Source: Cryobacterium sp. Y57
Lineage (GTDB): Bacteria; Actinomycetota; Actinomycetes; Actinomycetales; Microbacteriaceae
DNA: 64,000 nucleotides
Assembly: GCF_002929505.1 (NCBI RefSeq)
Contig: NZ_PJJL01000065.1
Coordinates: 6,478 to 70,477, forward strand
Reading direction: 5' to 3'
Both the position numbers and the translations under genes were made by a program. Shown here in pieces: positions 15,338 to 17,355 of this stretch (position 1 is its first letter; each line of letters begins with the position of its first letter). Below the pieces are notes generated by a model that made no database searches, had not been told where the DNA came from, and worked only from the letters and a program-made list of their open reading frames with translations.

Positions 15338-15730
15338 CTACGCCGTGACGGCGACCTTCGGTGCCGAGGTGTCGACGGGAAGGGCAGCCTTGGCGCTCTC
15401 GACGAGGGCGGCGAACGTCGCTGCCTCGTTGACGGCCAGGTCGGCGAGGATACGACGGTCAACCTCGATGCCAGCCAGGCCGAGGCCCTGGATCAGACGG
15501 TTGTAGGTGAGGCCGTTGACGCGCGACGCAGCGTTGATCCGCTGGATCCACAGGCGACGGAAGTCGCCCTTGCGTGCACGACGGTCACGGTAGCTATAGG
15601 TGAAGGAGTGAGTGAGCTGTTCCTTCGCCTTGGTGACCAGGCGTGAACGCTGACCGCGGTAGCCCTTGGCGCGTTCGAGAATAACGCGGCGACTCTTGTG
15701 GGCGTTTACGGCCCTCTTTACTCTTGCCAT
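15338..15730 (-). CDS. rplT: 50S ribosomal protein L20
   Basis: Binds 23S rRNA early in large-subunit assembly. 130 residues beginning [15 protein letters not shown], with the conserved [11 protein letters not shown] and [14 protein letters not shown] segments. The C-terminus is a few residues longer than the usual 117-126. Last gene of the infC-rpmI-rplT operon, 46 bp after rpmI, followed by a strong terminator. Confidence 0.98.
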
Positions 15731-15776: not shown

Positions 15777-15963
15777 TTACAGACCGAGAAGCTTCTTGAT
15801 GGTCTTCTGATCCGACTTAGCCAGCACCTGGTCCTGGTTCAAACGGGACTTGCGCTGCGTGCTCTTGACCTCGAGGTTGTGTCGAAGTCCGGCCTGCTGC
15901 TTCATGATCTTTCCGCTTCCGGTGACCTTGAAACGCTTCTTGGTTCCGGAGTGGGTCTTCATC

Positions 15964-15971
<8 letters not shown>
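15777..15971 (-). CDS. rpmI: 50S ribosomal protein L35
   Basis: 64 residues starting [20 protein letters not shown], the canonical L35 N-terminus. ATG at 15971 overlaps the last eight bases of infC (ATGCCTAA), so translation is probably coupled to infC. An upstream in-frame extension is part of infC coding sequence and was rejected. Confidence 0.98.
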
Positions 15972-16590
<619 letters not shown>

Positions 16591-16860
16591 GCGTCTCTCC
16601 TCTTGGTTAACTTCGTGATCACAACCAGTCAGCGGATGCTGATTGGGGACGAAGGAGGAAAATCACGCGCTTTTCATGCCAACTCTGTCGTTGACCTGTT
16701 TCACACGACACCCTGTCTACCCTCGCTTTGTCACCTTCTTGAAGGAGGTGATAACGCGACGGCGGAGTGCAAACTACCCGGTAACCTTGATGAAGCGGTA
16801 TGCGCGGGTGGGAGATTCTCCACTTTCGTACCGAGACTATTGTCCCGGAACCAAAGAGTA
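16591..16860 (-). promoter_or_regulatory. Long 5' leader of infC with 16S anti-SD mimic
   Basis: About 270 bases separate the probable promoter from the infC AUC. On the minus strand the leader contains ATCACCTCCTT (16742-16752), identical to the expected 3' tail of 16S rRNA, and a second CCTCCTTC (16651-16658). The first is partly self-complementary to a following GAAGGTGA. AGGAG of the infC ribosome-binding site could pair with the CUCCU of either. No coding sequence in the leader is convincing. A regulatory role is inferred. Confidence 0.45.
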
Positions 16861-16865
16861 GCCTA
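16859..16865. promoter_or_regulatory. Overlapping divergent -10 boxes (infC and DUF1844 gene)
   Basis: TAGCCTA reads TAGCCT on the plus strand (14 bases before the DUF1844 GTG) and TAGGCT on the minus strand, preceded there by TGC as an extended -10. The two promoters would share bases and could exclude each other. Confidence 0.35.
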
Positions 16866-16878
16866 GCAGAGGAATGCA

Positions 16879-17280
16879 GTGAGCCAAAGTTTTGAGCACG
16901 ATACGGGTTTTGAGCAGAATGCGGATTTTGAGCGGGAAACTGATTTTGAGCGGGATGCTGCCCAGGCAACACGCGATATCGCCGATGTGGCCGCTGTGGA
17001 GATCATCACCACGGCCGCGGTGCACCTCATGAGCGCGGCCGCCGTGAAGTGTGGCCTCGCCGAAGATCCCGACGCCCAGATCGATCTCGACGAGGCGCGC
17101 AAGCTCATCACGGCCCTCGCCGGACTGGTCACGGCGGCTGCCCCCGATATCGCCGACATGCACGCCCGCAGCCTGCGGGACGGCCTGCGTTCCCTACAGC
17201 TGGCGTTCCGCGAGGCGTCCTTCGTGCAAGATCCAATCGGCGAGGGCCCCGGTGAGAAGTACACCGGCCCAGTCACCTAA
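16879..17280 (+). CDS. DUF1844 domain protein
   Basis: 133 residues, function unknown. The conserved DUF1844 part is about residues 35-120 (AAVEIITTAAVHLMSAAAVKCGL, then DLDEARKLITALAGLV). The first 25 residues are an acidic/aromatic repeat in which Phe-Glu recurs every five to six residues (SFEHD, GFEQN, DFERE, DFERD), encoded by imperfect 18-bp repeats. GTG start at 16879 is preceded by AGAGGAA. Divergent from infC, a position this family commonly has in actinobacteria. Probably cytosolic and helical. Confidence 0.85.
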   Translation: MSQSFEHDTGFEQNADFERETDFERDAAQATRDIADVAAVEIITTAAVHLMSAAAVKCGLAEDPDAQIDLDEARKLITALAGLVTAAAPDIADMHARSLRDGLRSLQLAFREASFVQDPIGEGPGEKYTGPVT

Positions 17281-17289
17281 CCGTGTGCC

Positions 17290-17355
17290 TGGCAGTCTCA
17301 GGTCTGGCAGTCTCAGGTCTGGCAGTCTCAGGTCTGGCAGTCTCAGGTCTGGCAG
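17290..17355. repeat. Tandem repeat, 4.4 copies of a 15-bp unit
   Basis: TGGCAGTCTCAGGTC starts at 17290, 17305, 17320 and 17335, with six more matching bases at 17350. It spans the 3' end of nei2 and the gap to the DUF1844 gene. On the minus strand each unit has TGA in the nei2 frame, so copy-number change would not extend the protein. Confidence 0.92.

Follow-up and report, generated by a model that had tools for sequence, protein, structure and literature searches.

In Firmicutes, the operon infC-rpmI-rplT is preceded by the L20_leader (Rfam family RF00558), and in the leader of B. subtilis binding at the sensor leads to a terminator, according to the available text of PMC6097659 and PMC10931766. 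An AA dimer and two G–C pairs in succession are common to L20 leaders, as stated in the part of PMC7247131 that deals with them. In E. coli, the same genes are under feedback, namely, control of rpmI-rplT by L20 and of infC by IF3 (available text of PMC10931766). Candidate ribosomal-operon leaders (r-leaders) of the same kind, i.e., structured RNAs located before ribosomal genes and found by covariation, were presented by Eckert and Weinberg in 2020 (PMC7247131, in its accessible parts); infC is absent from the main text of that paper, and no actinobacterial L20 leader appears among the rows listed. For M. tuberculosis, RNA-seq revealed an abundant infC 5' UTR of 326 nt with a UTR/CDS ratio of 2.6 in the exponential and 4.9 in the stationary phase, and the authors, in the sections of PMC3207917 at hand, note its resemblance to the infA 5' UTR and suggest joint regulation.

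The window analysed here, a stretch of 64,000 nucleotides of Cryobacterium sp. Y57, contains the operon of the L20_leader systems in the same gene order (Table 1). Translation of infC starts at the ATC codon at 16588-16590, preceded by the Shine–Dalgarno (SD) sequence AAGAGGAGAG, and ATC is aligned at the equivalent place in 54/54 Cryobacterium leaders. The overlap of infC with the start of rpmI is eight bases, which suggests translational coupling; the C-terminus of IF3 (within 15964-16060, minus strand) is a repetitive ADKVADKA tail. No promoter was detected in the window leader by a strict sigma-70 scan, and no terminator was found in it by a terminator scan. The motif TANNNT is present at the place of 16860-16865 in 30/30 Cryobacterium leaders tested; this motif, together with the conserved core described below, suggests that infC transcription starts above 16651.

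A DUF1844 gene (16879-17280, plus strand) is divergent from infC, and just past it, at 17289-17355, a 15-base unit, CTGGCAGTCTCAGGT, is repeated in tandem. Cryobacterium leaders show good conservation of CATTCCTCTG (as read on the infC strand); since this sequence is the complement of the DUF1844 ribosome-binding site and is adjacent to the putative -10 of infC, its conservation need not be a property of the infC leader.

Table 1. Features of the infC locus, with positions counted from the first letter of the window.
Feature	Positions	Strand	Basis or remark
rplT (L20)	15338..15730	(-)	
rpmI (L35)	15777..15971	(-)	
infC (IF3), ATC start	15964..16590	(-)	
infC Shine–Dalgarno AAGAGGAGAG	16595..16604	(-)	
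Expression-platform strand CGTGATTTTCCTCCTTC, contains the second reported element	16651..16667	(-)	pairs with the core strand or the SD (predicted)
P4, an extended hairpin, distal arms variable	16708..16770	(-)	folding z -3.37; in 17 leaders, pairing in 98.0% of cells and little covariation
First reported element ATCACCTCCTT, falling largely within the 5' distal arm of P4	16742..16752	(-)	predicted pairing
P3 hairpin of the core, ACCCG...CGGGT; ACC in common with the core 5' part	16776..16809	(-)	covariance model match; covariation in P3 and the inner helix
5' part of the core, AAGTGGAGAATCTCCCACC, with the switching strand AAGYGGAG and hairpin P2	16807..16825	(-)	pattern AAGNGG[AG]..CCCACC; covariation
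P1 hairpin GGTTCCGGGAC-AATA-GTCTCGGTAC, near the putative transcript start	16828..16852	(-)	alignment of 30 Cryobacterium leaders and the folded leader
TAGGCT, likely -10 of the infC promoter	16860..16865	(-)	placed by eye; TANNNT in Cryobacterium leaders

A core with the anatomy AAGYGGA-P2-UCCCACC-P3-GGGU was found at 16776-16825 (minus strand), upstream of both sequence elements reported in the initial annotation of this leader. The pattern AAGNGG[AG]..CCCACC is present in 145 of the 146 distinct leaders fetched by the IF3 protein alone and in 0/2920 shuffled leaders. The exception, L105, carries AAGCGAAG..CTTCCACC with a compensated P2; both in L105 and in L185, the P2 strands GGAG/CTCC are replaced by GAAG/CTTC, a compensated change. 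In 39 aligned leaders, whose cores were hand-chosen from 81 as mostly shorter, non-duplicate ones and picked by a pattern fixing AAGNGG and CCCACC, so that invariance there is by construction, 92.8% of the helix cells are paired and 20 cells show a two-sided change (each 0/500 shuffles). Weaker measures of core covariation in the same 39 leaders are five double-change pairs, with 20/500 shuffles as high, and 11 further pair types (69/500). Six double-change pairs (0/500 shuffles) were found among 31 further model-fitted matches, two of them without IF3 nearby, and the replacement of a P2 G-C pair by A-U in L185 is one of these changes; the relatives compared in all these statistics are not independent of one another, redundancy having been reduced by similarity alone, with no correction by a tree.

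L193 and L194, two members of the class that score weakly for the core, carry AAGTGGAG and CTCCCACC; ACC..GGT is kept in them, the interior of P3 differs, and they perhaps represent a divergent core subtype. The core was also considered as a direct copy of an rRNA stretch, and this candidate was rejected, as nine short pattern look-ups in the rRNA contig of the same genome turned up no extended sequence in common.

In 145/146 leaders, the unpaired AAG is retained together with the CA of CCCACC, and no helix found needs all of these bases, which look like a putative binding site. Their retention bears on an alternative in which the device has no ligand, and folding speed, temperature or polymerase pausing alone picks the pairing. 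The competing pairings described below are indeed predicted without any ligand, but the kept bases of the putative site argue against this explanation, which we regard as improbable.

In the window, the covariance model constructed from the 39 leaders has a single strong match, at 16775-16831, with a score of 61.1 bits (E 8.4e-14, the E-values of the model being rough), the next match scoring 13.9 bits. In a class-wide search, 110 of 148 genomes were matched at E<=0.05, 105 of them once and five twice, and no core match was found in 38, some of which may have been missed by the strict filters. IF3 is encoded downstream on the same strand in 30/30 best loci, including that of the own genome; placement similar to that of RF00558 was accordingly observed before infC-rpmI-rplT in the window and before infC in all 30. 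In a draw from the phylum, 13/119 genomes were matched, nine within the class and four outside it, and two of the four outside matches are without IF3 in the fetched stretch. L187 and L191, which are from outside the class, show a weak core match with IF3 within the fetched stretch. A contig labelled Stenotrophomonas maltophilia (L044) contains a Microbacteriaceae-like infC and leader; its assembly is perhaps contaminated or mislabelled.

Three sets of leaders were compared, namely, 54 of Cryobacterium, 54 of other Microbacteriaceae and 73 of other actinobacteria, grouped by record titles, kinship and IF3 likeness. The Cryobacterium leaders originate from 54 of 57 genomes, the ones left out being G028 (contig end), G030 (fragment) and G039 (no match). 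A recognisable core is present in 71 of the 73 other leaders; for some of the 73, the distances are one codon off, the start having been taken from the alignment. L093, titled Aquiluna, which we take to be a Microbacteriaceae genus, was placed among these 73.

At gathering thresholds, no Rfam family was found in the window or at 15 other loci, except for rRNA genes at one locus, and a relaxed Rfam search of the window leader yielded just two microRNA families, far under threshold. RF00558 at gathering had no match in the window or in the loci of 12 relatives, and none at E<=10 in the leader. Membership in RF00558 was rejected, with matches in 0/39 genomes of the order and positive results for B. 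subtilis and two other controls. No description of this core was found in open-licence PubMed Central among the matches listed, and the accessible parts of PMC2965389, PMC2864571, PMC4681348, PMC12452182, PMC4128351 and PMC4137082 contain none. The infC genes of many actinobacteria are preceded by a conserved, probable RNA switch that is apparently as yet uncatalogued.

Outside Microbacteriaceae, a terminator-like hairpin followed by a T tract is located before infC in 39/50 non-redundant leaders, with 16.7 expected from shuffles. The best partner of the core 5' strand overlaps the 5' arm of the terminator in 28 of 36 leaders, compared with 5.4 for randomly placed partners and 11.4 with a shuffled core strand, the 36 being those with a terminator except for L076 and L111, in which it overlaps the core, and L105, which has no standard core. 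The pairs of core strand and partner from the same leader are more stable than pairs mixed across species, -15.14 vs -12.35 kcal/mol (0/10000 permutations), so that the two strands show compensatory change. When only the part behind AAGNGGAG was varied, the result was again 0/10000, and it was 27/10000 with AAGNGGAG alone; as that part is mostly the P2 loop and is not needed by P2, the signal behind AAGNGGAG speaks for an anti-terminator that excludes P2. In these computed pairings, the expression platform and the sensor are mutually exclusive outside Microbacteriaceae, a property by which r-leaders are judged, and the evidence for a switch in this group is strong.

Terminators are barely in excess in Microbacteriaceae (11/38 leaders, 8.1 expected), and the leaders of this family contain a pyrimidine strand, often near -70, which is able to pair with the SD. 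An SD partner with p<=0.05 was found in 12/47 non-redundant leaders, with about 2 expected, and own SD–partner pairs are stronger than mixed ones (P 0.008). The best partners of the core and of the SD overlap in 22/47 leaders (11.4 expected); the own-vs-mixed test for the core strand gave P 0.059. In constraint folding of the window leader, forcing P2 gives an SD opening of 0.01 and blocking it one of 0.27, and among six siblings the shift is at least 0.2 in two, 0.11 in one and at most 0.02 in three. The mean SD opening in the 47 leaders is 0.21 with P2 forced vs 0.25 with P2 blocked, seven leaders opening and three showing the opposite (P 0.063), which is a weak trend. Representatives of Microbacteriaceae seem to use SD sequestration; the evidence for a switch is moderate within the family and weak for the window alone, the own SD partner of which is not significant (p 0.23).

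The second element of the initial annotation, CCTCCTTC, is present in the infC leader at 16651-16658 (minus strand). It is a one-base-deleted version of TTTTCCTCTCTTCG, a strand able to pair with the infC SD, and the other 16 leaders of the close Cryobacterium group carry TTTTCCTCTCTTCG or a near variant at this place. The potential for SD pairing that had been suggested for this element is supported, CCTCCTTC being the window form of an SD-partner strand conserved in the genus. Predicted energies of SD pairing are -9.5 kcal/mol for the second element of the window, -12.9 for the strand of the close relatives and -8.8 for the first element. In the predicted ensemble, the window strand is shared between the SD (~0.55) and the core (~0.44).

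The identity of the first element, ATCACCTCCTT, to the 16S rRNA tail is real: the 16S rRNA of the same genome ends with GGCTGGATCACCTCCTTTCT, the end of its gene is GGATCACCTCCTTTCT, and the identity to the leader element is exactly 11 bases. The 11-mer occurs at three places in the 4.0-Mb genome, namely, the 16S end, the infC leader and one site on another contig. A match of at least 11 bases to the 16S tail was obtained in 0/5000 dinucleotide shuffles of the 264-base leader, a comparison chosen post hoc, once the match had been noticed; CCTCC alone is common by chance (443/2000 leader shuffles). Both this identity and the pairing energy of the first element with the SD, near that of the second element in the window, are in line with the model of the initial annotation, in which the 16S-tail copy acts as a competitor of ribosomes or as a sequestor of the SD and in this way senses free 30S subunits or IF3. 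However, the strand of the close relatives pairs better with the SD, and the exact element was found in only 6/54 leaders of Cryobacterium, 0/54 of other Microbacteriaceae and 0/73 of other actinobacteria, being restricted to part of one Cryobacterium group. The 16S-tail copy is therefore not kept in relatives, CCUCCUU is unconserved as far as the first element is concerned, and its role as a conserved sensor is rejected.

In the interval from the core to position -100, the motif CCTCC is present in 17/54 Cryobacterium, 4/54 other Microbacteriaceae and 5/73 other leaders, and the 17 Cryobacterium leaders are those with IF3 99–100% identical to that of the window. In these 17, the element makes up the 5' distal arm of P4, and UUCG closes the hairpin in seven. 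The complementarity CCTTC...GAAGG, which had been taken for a hairpin overlapping the element, is present within a larger stem. In the window, UCACCU of ATCACCTCCTT is predicted to be paired with a probability of at least 0.96; the predicted unpaired probability of the whole element is 0.33 on average, at most 0.04 for UCACCU, 1.0 for the two end bases and 0.36–0.73 for CCU, so the supposed 16S mimic is not single-stranded in the predicted fold. Covariation of P4 was rejected as the sole proof of this helix, being too weak in the 17 close leaders (one double-change pair, with 64/500 shuffles as high; covariation score, 224/500); the case for P4 comes from folding and from its like shape in two sister-group Cryobacterium leaders, the only ones folded, in which the arms are unrelated.

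The 16S likeness of the leader element is best read as incidental to an arm of a variable hairpin, because the element is not conserved, is largely paired in P4 and has unrelated counterparts in the sister leaders; even a striking 11-base match to rRNA can be incidental. We consider sensing of 30S subunits or IF3 by the 16S-tail copy very improbable. What stands of the view of the infC leader as an RNA switch is the conserved structured RNA with switch-like anatomy; the 16S-tail copy as its sensor, absent from most relatives, with UCACCU paired and P4 arms unrelated, does not.

As for the ligand, the direction of control and the function in the cell, we infer that the leader is probably a feedback attenuator of infC-rpmI-rplT, with the core as the sensor, the core 5' strand also serving as the switch and L20 as the likeliest ligand; such an RNA switch probably adjusts infC output. 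The core, consisting of AAGYGGAG, P2, UCCCACC, P3 and GGGU, often with P1 in front, would act as the sensor. When it is folded, presumably with a product of the operon bound, most likely L20, the downstream strand would be free for its 3' partner. The freed strand would complete an intrinsic terminator outside Microbacteriaceae, and would pair with the infC SD in Microbacteriaceae, including the window; both states would be OFF. In the ON state, with the core no longer held, AAGYGGAG would capture the downstream strand and form an anti-terminator or anti-sequestor. The long, abundant infC 5' UTR of M. tuberculosis, as reported in the available text of PMC3207917, is counted in favour of a leader switch.

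L20 is proposed as the first-choice ligand by analogy, since it is the named ligand of the B. subtilis leader (PMC6097659 and PMC10931766, in their available text) and since the AA and G–C positions of L20 leaders (PMC7247131, in part) could be supplied by the core. The main alternative, in which the same leader binds IF3 instead of L20 and the switch responds to the level of the initiation factor in addition to the effect of the AUC start, is unlikely. It agrees with the position of infC as the first gene of the operon, with the ATC start aligned in all 54 Cryobacterium leaders and with the described autocontrol of IF3 via a non-canonical start, the Streptomyces infC having ATC; however, the start codon alone accounts for IF3 autocontrol (both points from the portion of PMC5472188 available), and leaders of the infC operon are assigned L20 as their ligand in the corresponding text of PMC6097659 and PMC10931766. 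IF3 control via the AUC start may act in addition to the attenuator proposed here.

A broader scheme is possible, if rather doubtful: an Actinomycetes-wide family of switches that controls IF3, L35 and L20, senses a ligand new for such a leader (IF3, L35 or a 30S subunit docking on the SD-like AAGYGGAG) and has swapped the terminator for SD sequestration in Microbacteriaceae while keeping one switching strand. If the attenuator proposed above is right, a single RNA would tie ribosome assembly to the supply of an initiation factor throughout a large class of bacteria, and it may account for the length and abundance of the infC 5' UTR in M. tuberculosis. The replacement of a terminator by SD sequestration around one switching strand would then provide a clean example, from nature, of turnover in an expression platform.

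In comparison with known systems, the leader is a candidate ribosomal-operon leader in kind, with a conserved covarying structure, the core, upstream of the operon and an expression platform exclusive with the sensor, the evidence for which is moderate in Microbacteriaceae and not significant for the window alone. Unlike RF00558, the leaders of Microbacteriaceae have terminators scarcely more often than expected, and their control seems to act through the SD; translation-level control in E. coli resembles this form, although L20 in E. coli acts on rpmI-rplT within the cluster and not on infC, whereas here the RNA precedes infC (PMC10931766, in the text available). The AA dimer and G–C pairs of L20 leaders (PMC7247131, in the part concerned) can be matched with AA and GG/CC of the core, a likeness that is suggestive only. 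In the proposed formation of a terminator on sensor binding, the leader is likened to the L20 leader of B. subtilis.
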